Position numbers and translations under genes: made by a program. Shown in pieces: positions 4,031 to 40,614 of a stretch of 50,754 nt of DNA (the first letter of the stretch is position 1; each line of letters begins with the position of its first letter). Source of the DNA: a bacterium (lineage in GTDB: Bacteria; Patescibacteriota; Gracilibacteria; Peribacterales; Peribacteraceae); the NCBI GenBank assembly GCA_027623015.1, contig JAQBVR010000005.1, positions 1 to 50,754 on the forward strand, in the 5' to 3' direction. The notes under the pieces are model-generated. The model was not told the origin of the DNA. It made no database searches and saw nothing but the letters and a program-made list of their open reading frames with translations.

Positions 4031-4120
4031 TTAAGAAATAAGAGAAATAAAAGAAATAAGGGAAATAAGGGAGGGGTCACGTATTTCTCTTATTGCCCTT
4101 ATTTCCCTTATTTCTATTCG
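4031..4120. repeat. GAAATAAGR 9-bp-period array pair (inverted) between divergent genes
   Basis: agaaataagagaaataaaagaaataagggaaataaggg ... atttctcttattgcccttatttcccttatttc. Confidence 0.85.
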
Positions 4121-16339: not shown

Positions 16340-17256
16340 TCAAGTCATTGCACGCATGTCATCTTTTGCTAGCCATTCGATGTTGAGAATGTGTGCCGAA
16401 ATATCTTCTTGCACATGCGCTTCTTGTAAGAGTCCTGCCCATCTCTTGGCATCTCCTACTACGAGTAGGAGTACATCTGGCACTGTGCGAATTACTATTG
16501 AAAGAGCGTGTAGCAGAGGAGTACTTCCCTTGTCTCTGCTAAGACGCCCACCAAATAGAATCACTTTCTTCCCCTGCAGTGAATGTGTGTCTCGAAATGT
16601 TGCTATCTCTGAGTTGCTCGCTTCCCACGACTCTATGTCTATGCCGTTATGCACTACACACGTATGGGGGATTTTATTGGTATCGAGTGCCCTCTTTAGA
16701 GCTTCACTTACTGCTATCACTTTCGATGTGTTTTTTGTAGAATCCTTCGAATCAAGCGGTTTCGAAATGGGTTCCACTGTAGCCCCACCTGTCCGATATG
16801 ATCCAATGGTGTTACTTGTGTATCTACTCCTGCCGATGCCAGATACCTGTGAGTCATAAGTCTGCCGTAATTGAAACTCATAGTGTCATGCATCGTGATG
16901 CAGACTTTGTCTGTAAACGTACGCGCTATGCAAAGGGCATCGTACGTAAGGTACATGTGTAGGTTGTGTGCATGTACGATGTCTGGCTGTATGTTTTGCA
17001 TCTCCTGTTTTAGCATATTTGAAACAGTGCTTTGTTTTAGTGATTTGTAGTGCCGAAGAGATGGTGCGTAATCGATGGGCAGACTTATAACATTGCCTGT
17101 ACGGACAATGTCTTTTGACACATCTTTTCTATGTGATGTGATTACAGATACAGTGTGCCCTTTTTGTGCATATGCATCTGCAAGATTCTTCGTGATGTTT
17201 GCCACACTACTTTCATAGTTTGGAGGATACCTGTCATTGAGAAGGAGGATCTTCAT
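16340..17256 (-). pseudogene. GT4 glycosyltransferase, frameshifted at an A6 run and C-terminally truncated; paralogue of 19021-20235
   Basis: Two frames (17256-16717 and 16777-16340) together align along the 19021-20235 protein; sequence ends at WLAKDDMRAMT before the usual C-terminal UDP-binding region. Confidence 0.78.
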
Positions 17257-17975
17257 GAGTCAAGGAGAGCGCTATTTGGAGCGTGAATCACATCATCAAA
17301 TGTTGCAACGTATTTTAGGAATGATTCCAGATCATCCCAAAGATGGTACTTCTCTAGTTCGGAGCTGTGTCCTAGGATGTGAAACCAAGGCTGGTGAGAG
17401 CTGTATGCATGCATAAAGAGGTTTTTTGCGAAACTCAACCAACTGTGGCATTTGTACATAGGAATGTGCATCTTCTTTAAGTGTGGTCGTGCGCGCAGAA
17501 AAGGATTGAGGATCTTTCGGTTCATCACGGGGCGCAATGGATAGGGGTATACAAGAAGGGATATAGGAAGTGCGTGTGGATTTTCTCCTGAAAATGCAAA
17601 CTGGTCTACTGTTCTAGCACCCAGAAACCCAGCAGCTTTTACTGATGATTCTATGTCTGGATTTGTATCTCCATACGGATAACAGAACATAGTACATGGT
17701 TTGCCAGTATTGTCTTCTACCCACTTTTTACTGTCTACTATCTCCTTCTTTGCATCGTCCAATGTTATATTTGTGAGATGAGGATGCGTCAAAGTATGTG
17801 CACCTATTTCATGTTTTCTGCTGAGTTCTTGTACTTCTTTTTGTGACAGCATTTGAAGGCCAAATTGTTGTTTTGGAGAAACATAGAATGTACCTGTTGC
17901 TCCGTATGTCTCAAGTAGCTTTGCAACCCGAAGGTCCATAGCATATCCGTCGTCCCAAGACGTGGTAAATATCAT
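17253..17975 (-). CDS. Polysaccharide deacetylase (NodB/CE4-like)
   Basis: MIFTTSWDDGYAMDLRVAKLLETYGATGTFYVSP...EIGAHTLTHPHLTNI. Confidence 0.88.
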   Translation of the reverse strand: MIFTTSWDDGYAMDLRVAKLLETYGATGTFYVSPKQQFGLQMLSQKEVQELSRKHEIGAHTLTHPHLTNITLDDAKKEIVDSKKWVEDNTGKPCTMFCYPYGDTNPDIESSVKAAGFLGARTVDQFAFSGENPHALPISLLVYPYPLRPVMNRKILNPFLRARPHLKKMHIPMYKCHSWLSFAKNLFMHAYSSHQPWFHILGHSSELEKYHLWDDLESFLKYVATFDDVIHAPNSALLDS

Positions 17976-18259
17976 CGCTTTCGGGCAAGAAGATTATAGC
18001 CAATAGCAAATTTCTTACTACTGATACTGTGATCATATCCATCGCGCAATAATGCAAGGTGCGTCACCACGTATGTGTAGGCGAAAGTGAACTTTCCCCC
18101 TCGCAACCATTTATTTTCTAGTAGCCTTCGGATGTGCTGTTGGACACGTAGAGCAAAGTACCCTCCACGTTGTTCTATGCTTACAATTTCACAGTCATTC
18201 TCCAGAAGCTTTCTAAAGCTGTGATTCTTGGCTTCTATTAGTGCTCCACCAAGTGCCAT
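17972..18259 (-). pseudogene. C-terminal fragment of a SAM methyltransferase, paralogous to 18376-19020
   Basis: SIEQRGGYFALRVQQHIRRLLENKW...FAIGYNLLARKR vs KMEQRGGYYSLRTQVAIRFLIDKY...HAIGWAVLLEKPM; lacks the SAM-binding part. Confidence 0.7.
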
Positions 18260-18375
18260 GACGAAATGGCTAATACATTTGATTCGTTAAAAACGCCCGA
18301 AGGAAATCTTTTGCATTTTACGATTTTTCTTTTGTTAATGTGGGAAAGCCTTAGTTATTGAGATAATATTTACTT

Positions 18376-19020
18376 ATGATTGTTATGCAGCCAGATAGGG
18401 TAATTCTCAAGAATCAAGTCAGTAAATTTGCTAAGGAGCTTTCCGGATCAGTTTTAGATCTTGGTGGCGGGAATGGTGAACGTTATAAGCATTTTTTTCA
18501 GACGATAATATCACTGGATATTAATCCAGAGAATCATCCAGATATTGTTGGGTCTGCAGAGGATGTCCCCCTAGAGAATGGTGTAATGGATTCTATTTTA
18601 TGTACACAACTTCTTGAGCATGTTCCGCATCCCCTTAAGGTATTTTCGGAAATGTTTCGACTGCTCAAGCCTGGAGGTAAGGCATTTCTTACAGTTCCCC
18701 AATGGAATGAATTGCATGAAGAGCCACATGACTATTTTAGATATACAAATTTTGGCATGCGTCAAATGAGTGAGGATGCAGGATTTACTGTATTAAAAAT
18801 GGAGCAGCGTGGTGGTTATTATTCTTTGCGTACCCAAGTAGCTATCCGTTTCTTGATAGATAAGTATCATCCATATCAAAACTATTTTGCAATGCTAATT
18901 ATAGCCCCTATCAGTACTATACTAACAAAATTTGCAATAATGCGTGATAAATGGGATACCTCTGACGCGAATAGAAAACACGCTATAGGTTGGGCAGTAT
19001 TGCTGGAAAAGCCAATGTAA
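18376..19020 (+). CDS. Class I SAM-dependent methyltransferase
   Basis: GSVLDLGGGNGERYKHFF...MDSILCTQLLEHVPHPLKVFSEMFRLLKPGGKAFLTVPQW. Confidence 0.9.
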   Translation: MIVMQPDRVILKNQVSKFAKELSGSVLDLGGGNGERYKHFFQTIISLDINPENHPDIVGSAEDVPLENGVMDSILCTQLLEHVPHPLKVFSEMFRLLKPGGKAFLTVPQWNELHEEPHDYFRYTNFGMRQMSEDAGFTVLKMEQRGGYYSLRTQVAIRFLIDKYHPYQNYFAMLIIAPISTILTKFAIMRDKWDTSDANRKHAIGWAVLLEKPM

Positions 19021-20277
19021 TTAATTTTTTAAGATCTGCATGTATTTTTCAATCATGCAATGTGTAGAAAAAAATGTTTTTGCACGTTTTTCACCGGCTA
19101 TCCCCATTTTTTTTGCTTTATCTGGATGTGTGAGGAGGTCTAACAAGTGGTTTGCATATGCTTCCTTATCGCGTGGATCACAAATGAAGCCAGTTTTATT
19201 GTGTTCTACTACCTCTGATGGACCACCATACTTTGTAGTAACAACAGGCTTGCTTGCGAGCATTGCTTCTATATTCACTAGTAAAAATGGTTCTAGGTAT
19301 ACAGATGGCGTGGTAACAACATCCGCTATAGAATATGCAGCTTGCATTTCTTCTGATGATAGATAGTCAGTGAATCTGCAAGCTGGAAGTATCCTTTTTC
19401 CTGTTTTGGAATTACGAATATGAGATTCCCATTTTTGCTTATTGCCAACAAGTAGTAAGACTACATCTGGCATATGTTCATGTATTTTTTGGAATGCGCT
19501 TAGCAGGACATTTGCTCCTTTATCCTCAGAAAGTCTTCCAGCAAATAGGATGATCTTTTTATTTAATAATGAATATTTCTGAATAAAGTCTTTAGTAGAA
19601 CTAGTTTGTTGCATTTGGAGGTTAATACCATTGTGTATAAAAGTGGTATTTGTAATGCCATTTATACGTAGTGCTTTTTCTTGTTCTTTGCTTACTGCTA
19701 CCACTATGTTTACATATTTATTGAGAGTATTGCGAATGTAGTAGTTGCGGAATGGATTCCACTGAAGTCCACTGCTATGCCATTGGTCAAAGATGGATAT
19801 TTTTGGATTATTGTCATCAAGATATTTTTCTGTAGCAATGCGACCATAATGAACACTCATACAATCGTGAGCAGTGAGTATAATGTTTTTGGTATATCTT
19901 TTTGCTATTCGTAAAGAATGATATGTCAGATATGTATGAATGTTATGTGCGTGTACCACATCTGGTTGCTCCTCTTTGAGAATATCTTTCATCATTTTTG
20001 CTACTGCAGGGTTGTACAGAGAGAGCCAATGACGGAGTGAAATCCTGTAGGAGACTGGAATGCTAATAACATTATCTCTTCTTTGTATTGTGGGGTTATC
20101 TTTTTTTCTGTGCGTTGTAATTACTATTACGTCATGTCCTTTCTTTGTATATTCATCTGCAAATACTTTAGTCATATTAGCAACACTGTCATTGCCATAG
20201 GGTGGGTAGCTATCATTAAGAAGTGCTATTTTCATGTCTTCTGCAGTGCCGTCATCCCATGAGGTGGTTACTTTCAT
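19021..20277 (-). CDS. GT4 glycosyltransferase carrying a deacetylase N-terminal remnant (native GT start probably 20235)
   Basis: MKVTTSWDDGTAED (deacetylase-like) then MKIALLNDSYPPYGNDSVANMTK...FAGRLSEDKGANVLLSAF...EPFLLVNIEAMLASKPVVTTKYGGPSEVV. Confidence 0.88.
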   Translation of the reverse strand: MKVTTSWDDGTAEDMKIALLNDSYPPYGNDSVANMTKVFADEYTKKGHDVIVITTHRKKDNPTIQRRDNVISIPVSYRISLRHWLSLYNPAVAKMMKDILKEEQPDVVHAHNIHTYLTYHSLRIAKRYTKNIILTAHDCMSVHYGRIATEKYLDDNNPKISIFDQWHSSGLQWNPFRNYYIRNTLNKYVNIVVAVSKEQEKALRINGITNTTFIHNGINLQMQQTSSTKDFIQKYSLLNKKIILFAGRLSEDKGANVLLSAFQKIHEHMPDVVLLLVGNKQKWESHIRNSKTGKRILPACRFTDYLSSEEMQAAYSIADVVTTPSVYLEPFLLVNIEAMLASKPVVTTKYGGPSEVVEHNKTGFICDPRDKEAYANHLLDLLTHPDKAKKMGIAGEKRAKTFFSTHCMIEKYMQILKN

Positions 20278-21641: not shown

Positions 21642-21730
21642 AGAGAAATAAGGGAAATAAGGGAAATAAGAGAATGTCTATTTCTCTATAATACCTTCCC
21701 TTAATTTCTCTTATTCCTCTTATTTCTTAT
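21642..21730. repeat. GAAATAAGR array pair (inverted)
   Basis: agagaaataagggaaataagggaaataagag ... cttaatttctcttattcctcttatttctt. Confidence 0.85.
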
Positions 21731-21754: not shown

Positions 21755-22420
21755 ATGGGCATGGTTGACCGCATCGGCATAACCCGAAAGATCACCAGAC
21801 CCCGTCAGGAGGCGTTTATCAAGCAATTTGCTACAGATGGTGCAGTTTTAGATATTGGCTGTGGTAACGACCTCTATAAGGATGCATTTCCCAATTGTAC
21901 GACGGTGGATATCGCAGCTCGCCCAGGAGTGAAGGTGGATATCATCGGTGATGCGCACGATTTACACATGATTCAGGATTCCTCGTACGACATGATCCTC
22001 TGTGCGGAAGTCTTGGAGCACTTACATACACCACACAAAGCTATCGCTGAGTTTCATCGGATACTAAAGCCAGGTGGAAAGCTTATTCTTACAACGCGAT
22101 TTCTTTTCCCTATTCATGATGCACCAGGAGATTACTATCGTTACACGAAGTATGGTTTGCAGCATCTGCTTTCCAGGTTCACCATCGAAGAACTACAAGA
22201 AGAAACATCTACACTGGAAGCACTTGCAGTCTTGTACCAACGCATTGGATTTCAATGTGAGACACTCGGGTTCAAGCCATTCAAATTATTTTGGTTTTTG
22301 AAGGCGAAGGTGATTCTTCTCTTTCGAGGAATTATTTCAAAAGAGTATGGAGATATAGGGCATACTATTGAGGAGAGCCCTATTATGACTTCGGGGTATT
22401 TTGTTGCAGCTCATAAATGA
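21755..22420 (+). CDS. Class I SAM-dependent methyltransferase
   Basis: GAVLDIGCGNDLYKDAF...YDMILCAEVLEHLHTPHKAIAEFHRILKPGGKLILTTRF; ATGA overlap with CotH1. Confidence 0.9.
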   Translation: MGMVDRIGITRKITRPRQEAFIKQFATDGAVLDIGCGNDLYKDAFPNCTTVDIAARPGVKVDIIGDAHDLHMIQDSSYDMILCAEVLEHLHTPHKAIAEFHRILKPGGKLILTTRFLFPIHDAPGDYYRYTKYGLQHLLSRFTIEELQEETSTLEALAVLYQRIGFQCETLGFKPFKLFWFLKAKVILLFRGIISKEYGDIGHTIEESPIMTSGYFVAAHK

Positions 22421-24111
22421 GGCGCTTGAAAATCATCGCCATCGGTCTTCTGATATTCACTGTCTTCCAGATGGTGGCGCTCCTTGGCATGACGCTTCTT
22501 ATGTATCAGATAACACCAAAGAGTGTTCTTGCACGAGACACATTCATAGGACGCATCCAACCACTCATGCTTATGGTCCGCTTGGCGGACCGTTCTCTTA
22601 ATACGTTTTATAGAGGACCGACACCTCCTGCAGAAGTTCCTTTCTATAGCATCGAGATAGATGATGCAGACCTTACACTTCTTGAAGAGAAGCTAGAGAA
22701 ACTGGATGTCTTCCTCGAAGATGATGCAAAGATCTGGATGGACATCACTTTTACAGCAGATGGAGAGAAATACGATGCGAAGATGCGTGTGCGAGGCGAT
22801 CGGTTTAATCACTGGCAGTTCCGTAAGAAGTCGTGGCGAGTGAAGTTTCCAAAAGATCACCTCTTTAGAGGCATGCGCGAGATGACTCTGATCATCCCCG
22901 AAGACCGTGCATGGCATGCAGAGATGGTTAGCTACCATAGAGCGAAGAAGCTCGAACTGCTTCAGCCACCGATGCAATTTGTTGGCGTGTCGATGAATGG
23001 CAGTGCACCACTTGCATACGTAGAAGTGGAACACTGGACGAAAGAGATGCTTGAAAAGCAGGGTTACCCCGGAGATGTAAATTTCTACAACCCAGGTGGC
23101 ACACAGACGTCTACATTTGATGGATGGGACCCTCTATACGAAGACTTGGAGTATTCAGGGAAGTACTTGGAGTCGGACATTAGTCCACAGGATTCATTTG
23201 AACAGTTAGAACTCCTTTTCTCCCTTGAAGAAGAAGGTGCATATCTTGAGCCAGACTTTCAAGCGAAGGTACTTTCCATCTTTGACTTTGATACATTGAT
23301 CAAATGGCATGCGCAGAGTTTTCTAGCGGGAAATCTTCATGCAGGTGGCGCAAATATGCGCGTGTTCTTCGACACCTCTAGGGGGCAGTTTGTTCCTGTC
23401 CCATGGGACATACACATCACGACACCGAAGCCGCTTCTGTCTCAGTATCCCAGTGCACTTTGGCAAAACATCTTTGCTATACCGGAGTGGAATCTTGCAT
23501 TGCATCAGTTCCTCTGGGAGTACTTGAGTAGTGAAGAGCAGGTTGGTGACGACTTGGTGTATATAGATTCCTATAGAGAGATGGTGGAAGAGATGGCATA
23601 TCGCGATCCGCATAAACTTCTGAGCAACCGTCAGATCAAAAATGATCTTGATAGGAGGTCTCGTGAACTTCGAGAGAATATGGATTCTCTGCGTGAGCAA
23701 TTACAAACTTCAGAATTACTTGTAGCACAGCGACTACCCACTGATGATGACCTAGCAGATGGTATCGGGTTGATTCTTGATATTACTATGCGGGGTCCAG
23801 TGGCTTCTATATTGACGAATGTTACGCTGCCATCGGAGATCGAGTTAGATATTTCACTCGATGGCGAGGAATTTATCCTTGGTGAAACACTTCTAGCTCC
23901 AGAGTCTCCTCCTGTAGATGATCTCGGGTTCCCTACAGAAACGCCACAGACACACTACCTCCTTGAACTTAGAGGATTTACTATCACAGCAGGAGACCTG
24001 CCACTCCCCTTAGATCTACGCAACGCTGTTACAGGAGAGCCTTCAGATGTCATAAATACTGTCGTAGTAGATGACAGTAGATATCAGGATTTTGTTCCCG
24101 ATCTACGCTAA
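22417..24111 (+). CDS. CotH kinase family protein (CotH1)
   Basis: N-terminal TM; YDAKMRVRGDRFNHWQFRKKSWRVKFPKDHLFRGMREMTLIIPEDRAWHAEM; FVPVPWDI metal-site-like motif. Confidence 0.83.
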   Translation: MRRLKIIAIGLLIFTVFQMVALLGMTLLMYQITPKSVLARDTFIGRIQPLMLMVRLADRSLNTFYRGPTPPAEVPFYSIEIDDADLTLLEEKLEKLDVFLEDDAKIWMDITFTADGEKYDAKMRVRGDRFNHWQFRKKSWRVKFPKDHLFRGMREMTLIIPEDRAWHAEMVSYHRAKKLELLQPPMQFVGVSMNGSAPLAYVEVEHWTKEMLEKQGYPGDVNFYNPGGTQTSTFDGWDPLYEDLEYSGKYLESDISPQDSFEQLELLFSLEEEGAYLEPDFQAKVLSIFDFDTLIKWHAQSFLAGNLHAGGANMRVFFDTSRGQFVPVPWDIHITTPKPLLSQYPSALWQNIFAIPEWNLALHQFLWEYLSSEEQVGDDLVYIDSYREMVEEMAYRDPHKLLSNRQIKNDLDRRSRELRENMDSLREQLQTSELLVAQRLPTDDDLADGIGLILDITMRGPVASILTNVTLPSEIELDISLDGEEFILGETLLAPESPPVDDLGFPTETPQTHYLLELRGFTITAGDLPLPLDLRNAVTGEPSDVINTVVVDDSRYQDFVPDLR

Positions 24112-24120
24112 TATCTTCCT

Positions 24121-26820
24121 ATGCGACGCCTACATGTCATTCTTGGGATCATCGGAGTACTCATAGCTATCCAAGCTATAGGGATGCTTCTCATGGCATT
24201 ACTTATATATCAAGCAACACCGAACAGCACGCTGGCACAGCGTACATTTATCGGAAAGATCCCAGGGGTACTTAGTTCTGTACGTATTATTGATCGGTCG
24301 TTGAATATGTTGTACCGTGGTCCGAAACCTATAGAGTCACTACAGAGTTACAGTTTGCGTGTCGACACTGAAGATCTTCAAAATATAGAGGATGCACTAC
24401 CCACAGAGCTTCCGTCTCCGTGGTATTCAAACTTGTTTCTTACAGAAGATGCAAAAGAGTGGGCTGATGCAGTATTTACTGCAGATGGAGTGGATTACAA
24501 TGTGAAGATCCGTGTGCGAGGAGACATCTTCAATCACTGGGCGTACCGTAAAAAGTCTTGGCGAGTACGATTCGATAAGGATCAATTGTTTAATGGCATG
24601 CGTGAGATGAATTTGATCATTCCCGATGATCGTTCTTGGTTTGCGGAGCCACTCAATGTATACCGTATGAAGAATTTTGATCTCCTGCATCCAGCTATGG
24701 AGTTTGTAACTGTCTCTCTCAATGGCAGTGCCCCAATGCTCTATACACAAGCAGAACATTGGACGAAAGAAATGTTTGAGAAGCAGGGTTTTACGGGTGA
24801 TACCAATGTGTATAAAACAGGAGGGGGAGTATCGCACTTCCAACAGTGGGATCCTGTCTTTACAGAGATTGGGTACTGGGATAAGTATCTGAAAAATCCA
24901 AATCGAGATACGTACGATGAGGTGGAGATTTTGATGCAGCTTGCAGAGGAGGGTGCACATGAAGATCCAGACTACCTCAAGAAGCTCAAGGCAGTACTCG
25001 ATCTCGATGACATGATTTCTTGGTACGCTGTTTCCCTTCTCTCGGGAAGTCGGCATGTGAGTGACTTCAATGTGCGTTTCTACTTCAATCCATCCAGTGG
25101 CATGATGATGCCGTTACCTTGGGATATCAGTCTCTATGCACCACGTACACTGCTTACTCTTCCTGGCAATGCATTGCTCAATGAGATCTTCCGCATTCCA
25201 AAGCTAAAGCTCGCAGTGCATAAGATTCTTTGGGAATACGTCAACGACGGCGAACAAGTCGCTGCAGACTATGCAGAGCGCGACCGCTTGCGTGCATCTA
25301 TGGAGCGTGCTGCATATCGTGATCCACTCAAGATCCAAAGTAACAGACAGGTAAAACATCAGCTTGATACGTTGTCGTGGAAAGTGGAGACGAACATCGA
25401 GCACATTCAAGACGAGCTCAAGATCTCCGAAGTGCTTTTTACCGAGCGCATACCAAGTTCTGATGACAGCCGCGATGGTATCGTTCGTATTTTGGACTTC
25501 TCAGCACGTGGCGTTGCATTTGCATCACTCAGTGCACTGGCTCTATCGGAAGAGTTTGCTTCTCTTGCGGTGGAGGAAGAGATCCAGCTCTGGAGAGATG
25601 ATGGCGATGGTGTTTGGACTGCAAATGATGATCGTATCGCACTTGGTTTGTCTGAAAAATTAGACAAAAAAGGACGTACCGTAGTCGAAACGCTCGATGA
25701 AGATCTCGCACTGCTTTGGAGTGGTGATCCTATCACCAATGAACATGGTGCGGTGGTAACAGCACCGCACACTCGACATCGATTCTTTGTTGTTGTGCCA
25801 TCTCGCGCAGTAGATCTAGATGCATTTACGATGAAGGTTACCGTACGCAATGCCGTGACAGGAAAAAAAGCAGATGTTATAGGCGAGACACTTGTAGATG
25901 AGCGTACATTTGAACGGCTTGATGAGGCGTACATGAGTCGTAGTGACTTCCTTGATAAGTACCCATACTTCCTCGCGAATGCTACAGATGGTGTGCAGCT
26001 TCGAGGCTTGCATCGTATTTCTGAGACGGTGATCGTTCCCTCCACAGTACAGCTCATCATTTATCCGGGTACGACTCTACGTATGGACCCAGGAGTTTCT
26101 ATTCTCTCCTACGCTCCTGTTACCATGATTGGGTACAAAGAGAGGCCGATAGAGATCAAAGCAACTGGAAGCGATCCATGGGGTGTCTTTGCAGTCCTCA
26201 ATGCAAGTGAGCCAAGTGCTGTGCAGTGGACGAGTGTCTCTGGAGGATCCGATGCGTACATCAATGGTGCATTCTTCTCGGGTATGTTTGCCTTCCATGG
26301 TAGCCCTGTGACTATTGTGGATTCTGTCATAGCAGATGCACATGGTGACGATGGGCTCAATCTGAAGAACATCTACGTAGACATCAACCGTGTTCGGTTT
26401 GAAGCAAATTCTGCAGATGGTCTCGATATAGATTTCGCTCTCGCAGGTGTAGTGGAGAATAGCCTCTTCATCGACAATGGAAACGATGGACTAGACATCT
26501 CTGGTTCTCCCATCATCATCCGAAACATCGAAGTCACAAACAGTGGCGATAAGTGTGTAAGTGTAGGAGAAGGTAGCACACCACTTATCTACGACAGCGT
26601 CTTGAAAGGATGCCAAATAGGAATCGCGGTCAAAGACGACTCTCATGCAAAGATAGAGCGTGTCGAATTTATCGACAACGATATTGCTATCTCTGCCTAT
26701 GTCAAAAAGCTCTTCTTTGGTGTCCCATCTGTCACGGTTATCGATAGTACATTTATCGAAAATGGTCAGAAGATACTTGCGCTCTCTGGTGCAGTGATTA
26801 CCCTTGATTCTGCTGAATAA
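24121..26820 (+). CDS. CotH kinase family protein with C-terminal right-handed parallel beta-helix (CotH2)
   Basis: Same N-terminal architecture as CotH1 (YNVKIRVRGDIFNHWAYRKKSWRVRF...MPLPWDI) plus DGLNLKNIYVDINRVRFEANSADGLDIDFALAGVVENSLFIDNGNDGLDISGSP repeats. Confidence 0.85.
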   Translation: MRRLHVILGIIGVLIAIQAIGMLLMALLIYQATPNSTLAQRTFIGKIPGVLSSVRIIDRSLNMLYRGPKPIESLQSYSLRVDTEDLQNIEDALPTELPSPWYSNLFLTEDAKEWADAVFTADGVDYNVKIRVRGDIFNHWAYRKKSWRVRFDKDQLFNGMREMNLIIPDDRSWFAEPLNVYRMKNFDLLHPAMEFVTVSLNGSAPMLYTQAEHWTKEMFEKQGFTGDTNVYKTGGGVSHFQQWDPVFTEIGYWDKYLKNPNRDTYDEVEILMQLAEEGAHEDPDYLKKLKAVLDLDDMISWYAVSLLSGSRHVSDFNVRFYFNPSSGMMMPLPWDISLYAPRTLLTLPGNALLNEIFRIPKLKLAVHKILWEYVNDGEQVAADYAERDRLRASMERAAYRDPLKIQSNRQVKHQLDTLSWKVETNIEHIQDELKISEVLFTERIPSSDDSRDGIVRILDFSARGVAFASLSALALSEEFASLAVEEEIQLWRDDGDGVWTANDDRIALGLSEKLDKKGRTVVETLDEDLALLWSGDPITNEHGAVVTAPHTRHRFFVVVPSRAVDLDAFTMKVTVRNAVTGKKADVIGETLVDERTFERLDEAYMSRSDFLDKYPYFLANATDGVQLRGLHRISETVIVPSTVQLIIYPGTTLRMDPGVSILSYAPVTMIGYKERPIEIKATGSDPWGVFAVLNASEPSAVQWTSVSGGSDAYINGAFFSGMFAFHGSPVTIVDSVIADAHGDDGLNLKNIYVDINRVRFEANSADGLDIDFALAGVVENSLFIDNGNDGLDISGSPIIIRNIEVTNSGDKCVSVGEGSTPLIYDSVLKGCQIGIAVKDDSHAKIERVEFIDNDIAISAYVKKLFFGVPSVTVIDSTFIENGQKILALSGAVITLDSAE

Positions 26821-26896
26821 TTAACTACATCCCAAATCCCAAATCCCAAATCCCACACTCCAAAAGCAAAGCGCCTCACCTCTTCATTTCCGTCGT

Positions 26897-27613
26897 ATTG
26901 AAATAAAATACGTGCTGCCCGATAGATTGATCCCTGCATTTCGAGATCGCATCGCTCCCTATACACAGCCAGATCCTTTCTTGGTAGATGAAGGAGCTCA
27001 CAGAAAGCAGTACCCTGTGACATCTCTCTATTTTGATTCTGTAGACTTGCATTCTTTGTATGAGAAGGAAGCAGGACTCCTTTCGCGACGTAAAGTGCGA
27101 CTACGTACATACGAAAAAGAATTTTCCGAACAGGGGTATGCATTTCTGGAGATCAAGCGTCGTCATGACTTTGTGGTATCGAAAGACAGACTATCTCTCT
27201 CTGTTGGCCACCTGAAGGCAGATCTTCCTATGGCAAATTTACTCGATCATGTTCTCCAAAGAGTAGAGGCTGACGAAGATGTAACAAGCGAAGTGCACCT
27301 ACTCCAGAGCTGGTATAATCTTCAGCCTACATCTCTTGTGAGTTATATTCGCACACCATTTGTTGGTATGCAGGACCGACGTTTTCGTATCACTATTGAC
27401 AGTGATATGGAGACAGTGTGGAAGCCAACTCAATTGATTGGTCATCAGCTACGTACTGCATGTCACGCTGGATGGAGTGTCGTCGAAGTGAAATGTAACC
27501 ATGCTATTCCATCGTGGTTTCACGATATCATCCAAGAATTTGAACTCAATCGCACCGCACACTCGAAGTATGCGTTGTGCGTGCAGCATGGTGCTGGTTT
27601 GGTTGCTGGATGA
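26897..27613 (+). CDS. VTC-domain (polyphosphate polymerase-like) protein
   Basis: RRIEIKYVLP...YPVTSLYFDSVDLHSLYEKEAGLLSRRKVRLRTYEKE...AFLEIKRRHDFVVSKDR...VEVKCNHAIPSWF; start codon uncertain (ORF track GTG at 26912; conserved residues begin upstream). Confidence 0.83.
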   Translation: MEIKYVLPDRLIPAFRDRIAPYTQPDPFLVDEGAHRKQYPVTSLYFDSVDLHSLYEKEAGLLSRRKVRLRTYEKEFSEQGYAFLEIKRRHDFVVSKDRLSLSVGHLKADLPMANLLDHVLQRVEADEDVTSEVHLLQSWYNLQPTSLVSYIRTPFVGMQDRRFRITIDSDMETVWKPTQLIGHQLRTACHAGWSVVEVKCNHAIPSWFHDIIQEFELNRTAHSKYALCVQHGAGLVAG

Positions 27614-27621
27614 TGTTTTTT

Positions 27622-27732
27622 TAAGAGAAATAAGGGGAATAAGGGAGTTCTTTGTATAGGGTTTCTACTAGGTATGGGAAATTGTCAGTTTTAATTTCTC
27701 TTATTTCTTTTATTTCCCTTATTTCTTTTTTA
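27622..27732. repeat. GAAATAAGR array pair (inverted)
   Basis: aagagaaataaggggaataaggg ... aatttctcttatttcttttatttcccttatttctt. Confidence 0.85.
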
Positions 27733-27748
27733 ATCTACCATTAGTTCC

Positions 27749-28441
27749 ATGCAACCAGTTATCCCAGATATCGGATCATTCTCAACGATGCTCAACCCTG
27801 TGGTCGCAGTGATTGCACTTTTTGGAAGTTGTCTTTTAGGACTCCTTACAGCATGGGTCTACAAGTCTACACACCGTGGACTTTCCTACTCTCAGTCGTT
27901 TCAGTTCTCTTTGGTGCTTCTTACTATTCTTGGATCAGTTGTGATGATGGTCGCAGCAGGAAGCCTTACGAGAGCTATTGGAATTCTTGGCGCATTCTCG
28001 CTCGTTCGTTTCCGTACAGCTATCAAAGACCCTAAGGACATGGCATTCATACTCCTGTCTCTTTCTACAGGTCTTGCTATGGGGGCGGAGATGTACATCC
28101 TCGCTGGTATGACAACAGTGTTCGTGTCTCTTGTGATCTTGGTACTCACATGGGCAAACTTTGGTATGTCGAGCAAGCATGAGTCTGTCTTCCGTCTTAT
28201 GTGTAAGGAAGGAGGGAAGGGGTCTGCAGTAAACATCGCAGTCTATGAGGCTATGTTTGATAAGATGGCTGACTCATACCGACTTCTCAGTGCACATGGC
28301 CGTGGTGATCGCATGGAACTGAGTTATGGTGTGCGTCCACGTAAAGGAGAGACAGCGATCTCCATACTCGATGCACTACGTAAAGACCATAGTGTAGAAG
28401 ATGTGGAGCTGTTTGATGCAAAGCACCAGGTGGAGTTTTAA
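27749..28441 (+). CDS. DUF4956 membrane protein
   Basis: Three to four TM segments, GSLTRAIGILGAFSLVRFRTAIKDPKDMAFILLSLSTGLAMGAEMYILAG. Confidence 0.85.
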   Translation: MQPVIPDIGSFSTMLNPVVAVIALFGSCLLGLLTAWVYKSTHRGLSYSQSFQFSLVLLTILGSVVMMVAAGSLTRAIGILGAFSLVRFRTAIKDPKDMAFILLSLSTGLAMGAEMYILAGMTTVFVSLVILVLTWANFGMSSKHESVFRLMCKEGGKGSAVNIAVYEAMFDKMADSYRLLSAHGRGDRMELSYGVRPRKGETAISILDALRKDHSVEDVELFDAKHQVEF

Positions 28442-28648
28442 ACGGTTCTGTGTTGTGAGTTCTGGGTTACGGGTTTTTGCTTTTAGCTTAGCAATGTATT
28501 GCCATGGTATGGCATGAGTTTTTTTCATGGTGCATAGCGTCTTATCGCGTCATAAATATTTGAGCAGGGGAGCCTCGTTGTTCTACTTATATATTTTTGT
28601 ACGTATATTCTCCAAAAAAATAATGCCACTCATTGCATATGTTGCTAC

Positions 28649-31556: not shown

Positions 31557-31631
31557 AAATCCCAAAATCCAAGCACCAAATCCCAAAACTTCTTCACTAT
31601 TGGGATTTGGGATTTGTTATTTGGGATTTAC
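31557..31631. repeat. AAATCCC 7-bp-period array pair (inverted)
   Basis: aaatcccaaaatccaagcaccaaatcccaaaac ... tgggatttgggatttgttatttgggattt. Confidence 0.85.
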
Positions 31632-40476: not shown

Positions 40477-40537
40477 GGAAATAAGAGAAATAAAGGAAAT
40501 AAGAGAAATATGAGAGCAGCCTATTTTTCTTATTTCG
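40477..40537. repeat. GAAATAAGR array pair (inverted, second arm short)
   Basis: ggaaataagagaaataaaggaaataagagaaat ... ctatttttcttatttcg. Confidence 0.75.
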
Positions 40538-40614
40538 TCGGTCTATGCAATTTCAATCGTTGAAAACAGCAGTACTACCATAATCCCTTATTCCACTTCT
40601 TTCTTCAAGGAGCG

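Follow-up and report, generated by a model that had tools for sequence, protein, structure and literature searches.

A linked set of genes encoding CotH kinase-like proteins, a VTC-domain protein and a DUF4956 membrane protein lies within a surface-glycan region of a Candidatus Peribacteria genome, and the linkage of these three families recurs across the Patescibacteria. The set belongs, as a variant, with the known accessory group of Gram-positive Pel loci, cotH-PPP-DUF4956; what is new here is its strict, Pel-independent linkage in Patescibacteria, together with a clade of CotH proteins that carry histidine at the position of Asp228. As judged from sequence, a role in surface phosphorylation or linked to polyphosphate is plausible and constitutes the best reading of these genes.

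Gene Content of the Locus

The window analyzed here is the whole 50,754-nucleotide stretch of contig JAQBVR010000005.1, from a genome of 1.10 Mb that is 99% complete. Five co-directional open reading frames occupy positions 21755–28441 of the forward strand. The first encodes a class I SAM methyltransferase (21755–22420; Methyltransf_23, 5.6e-16), and its stop codon overlaps the start of CotH1 in an ATGA at 22417, as the initial annotation had described. CotH1 (22417–24111; CotH, 2.8e-17) combines an N-terminal membrane anchor with a CotH kinase-like domain, and CotH2 (24121–26820; CotH, 1.3e-17; Beta_helix, 2.4e-12) comprises a membrane anchor, a CotH kinase-like domain, a beta-rich middle and a C-terminal right-handed beta-helix. 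These are followed by a VTC-domain polyphosphate polymerase-like protein (26879–27613, conserved from 26879; Pfam VTC, 9.6e-35) and by a DUF4956 membrane protein (27749–28441; 2e-9) with an MgtC-like transmembrane region and a C-terminal ACT/ferredoxin-like domain. Pfam matches for all five frames exceed the curated cut-offs, and the five domains first named by eye, including the CotH2 beta-helix, were all recovered, with CotH, VTC and DUF4956 each assigned by HMM search; an NCBIfam search yielded nothing useful for these three families. Downstream of the DUF4956 gene there is a terminator-like hairpin with a T tail (28500–28514, forward strand), which is a pattern match only; terminator-like sites in the window are not clearly above shuffles, and promoter-like sites are fewer than in shuffles.

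The methyltransferase had originally been counted as a module member, and it was dropped from the core because only 4 of 13 Peribacteria loci, the window included, have it immediately 5′ of CotH. The core is therefore CotH-VTC-DUF4956, with the methyltransferase as an optional partner. Upstream, positions 16717–20277 contain an apparent partial duplication with deacetylase, GT4 and methyltransferase fragments, and the GT4 at 19021–20277 has a short deacetylase-like N-terminus (MKVTTSWDDG).

Distribution and Linkage of the Trio

Among 59 relatives, VTC is found in 12 genomes, CotH in 11 and DUF4956 in 10, and in all ten DUF4956-bearing genomes the three families are encoded near each other. The window genome itself has one VTC. 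Since only 7 of the 36 genomes in the window's family carry the trio, it is accessory. Two TGA-recoding relatives (G048 and G057; loci L039 and L040) have VTC without CotH or DUF4956, and both have PPK2. A profile search of genome contigs with the VTC alignment retrieved records from Peribacteria/Peregrinibacteria plus one whose title says no more than Patescibacteria, so that evidence from other phyla comes from plasmid records and from published work. The gene neighborhoods show the core to be syntenic in 12 Peribacteria-type records: at every one of these loci VTC is preceded by CotH2 (by its beta-helix end where a contig edge truncates it) and followed by DUF4956. A second, shorter CotH lies 5′ of CotH2 in five of the twelve, and also in the window.

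In a set of 380 Patescibacteria genomes, VTC, CotH and DUF4956 each occur in 27, and 23 genomes hold all three, against 0.14 expected by chance. DUF4956 and VTC are shared by 25 genomes (Fisher p 1.4e-34); because the genomes are related, such p-values overstate the number of independent events, but gene orders and loci differ between families. In all 25 VTC-DUF4956 pairs the two genes share a contig and strand and lie no more than 4 kb apart, with at most 260 bp between matches in 21 of them; of the 23 genomes with all three families, 20 also have CotH on that strand and no more than 4 kb away. Four DUF4956 genomes miss a partner, and in three of these the match lies close to the end of a contig; in one family (f29) the VTC-DUF4956 pair has no CotH linked to it. 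One Patescibacteria locus has a 394-aa open reading frame between VTC and DUF4956 (L048:7879-9060).

Outside the phylum, the trio is present in plasmid records from Pseudobutyrivibrio, within a glycan locus, and from Planococcus (three unannotated loci of the plasmid collection were left out). Together with the Gram-positive Pel loci (PMC7112168), these bear out the co-occurrence in other phyla that the initial annotation had noted. No relevant publication on CotH in Patescibacteria emerged from a literature search.

The VTC-Domain Protein

The VTC match (PF09359) scores 120.7 bits against a cut-off of 23, and in a profile comparison yeast Vtc4 (3g3q) ranks first (4.8e-14), ahead of the other VTC subunits, which places the window protein nearest to the catalytic Vtc4 and not to Vtc2/3. 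The equivalents of Vtc4 K200, R264, R266, K281, K294 and R361 (K10, R74, R76, K93, K102 and R158) are invariant in ten divergent sequences; E203 is taken as the counterpart of E426 by pattern only. To inactivate Vtc4, a set of residues that includes R264 and R266 has been mutated (PMC9911596). By fold and residues, the protein would polymerize polyphosphate from ATP in the cytoplasm. None of the 59 relatives has PPK1, and the 36 genomes of the window's family are without PPK2, which leaves VTC as the only recognized polyphosphate maker. Similar to the yeast VTC complex (Vtc1/3/4; PMC9911596), the trio joins a VTC domain bearing Vtc4-type catalytic residues to a membrane protein; unlike that complex, it has no SPX domain and no identified transmembrane protein of the Vtc1 type, and the membrane partner is MgtC-like.

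The start of this gene was called at a GTG (26912–27613), which is too late, given that the VTC match extends from 26894 (6e-38) or earlier and that the conserved N-terminus, PLHFRRIEIKY, begins at 26879. The motif PLHFRR.E.K(Y/F) is common to VTC proteins of all the Peribacteria relatives, and its lysine is the K200 equivalent. Between the in-frame stop codon (26822–26824) and this N-terminus there is no ATG, GTG or TTG; candidate non-standard starts in the region 26818–26911 are an ATC at 26843 and an ATT at 26897. On the forward strand, the gap from the CotH2 stop codon to VTC holds an array of AAATCCC heptamers at 26831–26855 (the window has 7 matches versus 0.01 expected), in the place where the nearest relatives have an ATG as the VTC start. 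The gene is thus a candidate for start loss or for non-standard initiation, and it may be unexpressed in this strain because it has no evident start codon. The same heptamer forms arrays at 1132–1156 and 31601–31625, which are included in the seven matches. A second repeat, the nonamer CTTATTTCC, forms an inverted pair of arrays between VTC and DUF4956 (27626–27726; 16 matches in the window versus 0.08 expected), with further inverted pairs at 4034–4115, 21644–21727 and 40477–40604; these mostly intergenic pairs are possible mobile or regulatory repeats.

The DUF4956 Protein

The DUF4956 model (PF16316) matches at 37.8 bits (cut-off 30.6), and the MgtC model (PF02308) at 17.9 bits, below its cut-off of 31.4. 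All 26 homologs examined match DUF4956, and 16 of them also match MgtC weakly (best 1.6e-5), which makes the protein a distant relative of MgtC and not a member of that family. The motif G.LGA.S.IRFR.A.KD is present, with R87 and R89 invariant in the 26 sequences. An AF2 model of moderate confidence (pLDDT 66.7, pTM 0.54) shows membrane helices and, after them, a beta-alpha-beta-beta-alpha-beta domain, for which a fold search gave weak matches to ACT/ferredoxin-like structures; this ACT-like domain is probably cytosolic. The homolog from Streptococcus intermedius has likewise been described as MgtC-like with an ACT domain (PMC12345266). No solved structure related to DUF4956 by sequence was found and the fold matches are weak, so a role as a channel is hypothetical.

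The CotH Proteins

Each CotH protein has a single N-terminal hydrophobic segment (residues 6–24 in CotH1) preceded by K/R residues, and both are predicted to be membrane-anchored with their domains facing outside the cell. The AF2 model of CotH2 (pLDDT 81.7) has CotH (5jda) as its best Foldseek match in the PDB (E 1.1e-10), followed by alginate lyase and C5-epimerase beta-helices that match the C-terminus; in profile comparison, CotH aligns to 5jd9 at 5.7e-33.

In an alignment to 5jd9, both window copies and all Peribacteria homologs have histidine at the Asp228 position, which was set by the 23-residue Asp-Asp spacing in the B. cereus sequence (251 minus 228), and the profile alignment puts the histidine in the same register. 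The equivalents of N233 and D251 are kept, the latter in a PWD motif (D335 in CotH2, whose histidine is His312). The His-type proteins form one clade among Patescibacteria CotH sequences (support 0.905), and the Pseudobutyrivibrio and Planococcus proteins have aspartate. In B. subtilis CotH, D228Q and D251A each inactivate the enzyme (PMC7821199), and ordinary protein-kinase activity is therefore not to be assumed for the His-type proteins; conservation of the histidine suggests that CotH function is altered, not decayed. The fold and most active-site residues are shared with the Bacillus spore-coat kinase (5jd9/5jda; PMC7821199), from which the proteins described here differ in their membrane anchors, their glycan setting and their histidine.

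Glycan Setting and Absence of Pel Genes

The polysaccharide-locus setting proposed in the initial annotation is confirmed, and the window is a surface-glycan region: a flippase, GT4 glycosyltransferases, UDP-glucose and GDP-mannose dehydrogenases, a GDP-mannose dehydratase, epimerases, GtrA proteins, a GT2 and a polysaccharide deacetylase surround the trio. Most same-family relatives keep the trio amid this gene set. In other Patescibacteria, 70 neighboring proteins include up to 13 matches to group-1 glycosyltransferase models, seven to GT2 and seven to epimerases, as well as aminotransferases; in Pseudobutyrivibrio, too, the trio has glycosyltransferase, epimerase and aminotransferase neighbors. 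Two proteins of the neighbor set match Cthe_2159 (carbohydrate-binding), and in f29 genomes the two open reading frames likely to be these matches (L064:6283-7716 and L067:9018-10598) adjoin DUF4956. PelF (DUF3492) was found in none of the 59 relatives and PelG in none above the cut-off; the module is therefore not tied to Pel. Adjacent pelDEADAFG genes were likewise absent among the annotated neighbors of the trio.

Comparison with Known Systems

In Gram-positive bacteria, cotH-PPP-DUF4956 is an accessory group of Pel loci (Whitfield 2020; PMC7112168, PMC12345266). The S. intermedius genes SIR_1592-1594 resemble the trio described here in that the three families share one operon beside exopolysaccharide genes, with a secreted CotH, a polyphosphate polymerase domain and an MgtC-like transmembrane protein with an ACT domain. 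The Patescibacteria variant differs in that PelF and PelG were not detected, CotH is duplicated and has a beta-helix, Asp228 is replaced by histidine, and the hosts belong to a candidate phylum; the S. intermedius study did not find trio synteny outside Pel loci (PMC12345266). Another similar locus is NELoc-2 of Clostridium perfringens (PMC2879425), where VTC and CotH genes lie beside a glycosyltransferase; unlike in the window, the VTC genes there are duplicated and in another order, and the locus has genes called tubulin/FtsZ. The Planococcus layout is similar to NELoc-2, with DUF4956.

Proposed Function

We tentatively propose, with confidence somewhat short of even, that the trio is a surface-glycan phosphate module. 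VTC would supply polyphosphate in the cytoplasm; DUF4956, from its strict pairing with VTC, would anchor, regulate or conduct this polymer at the membrane; and the anchored CotH proteins would act extracellularly, where little ATP is available, possibly transferring phosphate to the polysaccharide that the neighboring genes produce or to its anchor proteins. The beta-helix of CotH2, being of the polysaccharide lyase/epimerase type, would bind glycan. Consistent with this proposal, deletion of the CotH or the DUF4956 gene in S. intermedius affects Pel, and in artificial sputum medium either deletion leaves less than half of the aggregation (PMC12345266). Counted against it are the histidine, with which CotH kinase activity may be lost or changed; the S. 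intermedius VTC homolog SIR_1593, whose deletion mutant still aggregated, with no aggregation phenotype reported (PMC12345266); the unlinked CotH of f29; and the lack of an evident start codon in the window VTC gene. Conduction by DUF4956 is likewise conjectural, its model being moderate and its fold matches weak.

A rather unlikely alternative is that the trio serves regulation and not polymer modification, with CotH phosphorylating synthesis or anchoring proteins and with VTC and DUF4956 sensing the phosphate or energy state via the ACT-like domain. Control by CotH phosphorylation was proposed for the Pel loci (Whitfield 2020; PMC7112168), and in S. intermedius the amount of Pel falls when the CotH gene is deleted and rises when the DUF4956 gene is deleted (PMC12345266), that is, in opposite directions; ACT-like domains are commonly regulatory, and MgtC affects phosphate physiology. 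However, the CotH domain is predicted to lie outside, where it would not meet cytoplasmic synthases, the beta-helix suggests that glycan is the target, and the conserved catalytic residues of VTC would not be needed for sensing alone.

We consider it unlikely that CotH is a pseudokinase or another kind of transferase serving as a glycan-binding surface scaffold, with VTC-DUF4956 making polyphosphate that is stored or forms a polyanion layer on the surface. The histidine is found across the whole clade, and a storage enzyme would be useful where PPK1 and PPK2 are absent; yet the lysine, the asparagine and the Asp251 equivalent (K144, N317, D335) are conserved, so that CotH probably retains a ligand or metal site, and an enzyme for storage would have no need to be linked to CotH and glycan genes. 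The notion that the genes are passengers in mobile surface-polysaccharide loci, with no shared function, would fit their patchy presence (7 of 36 same-family genomes) and the variable glycan loci, but it is very improbable, given the 23/27 overlap and the fact that the trio, whose members are almost never apart, recurs with varying gene order and at different loci in Bacillota as well as in distant Patescibacteria.

A more specific form of the glycan phosphate module, which we regard as decidedly speculative and improbable, would have VTC polyphosphate pass through DUF4956 and serve as the donor with which extracellular His-type CotH phosphorylates polysaccharide, possibly via a phospho-histidine at the Asp position. 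If true, this would be a kinase running on polyphosphate where no ATP is available.

That the trio is tightly linked in Patescibacteria glycan loci lacking Pel, and also in a plasmid locus of Bacillota, shows a more general module than a Pel accessory group. It raises the question of how phosphate is supplied to an extracellular kinase-like enzyme, for which the His-type CotH clade is a clear biochemical target, and DUF4956 becomes a candidate for the membrane partner of a VTC polymerase in bacteria.
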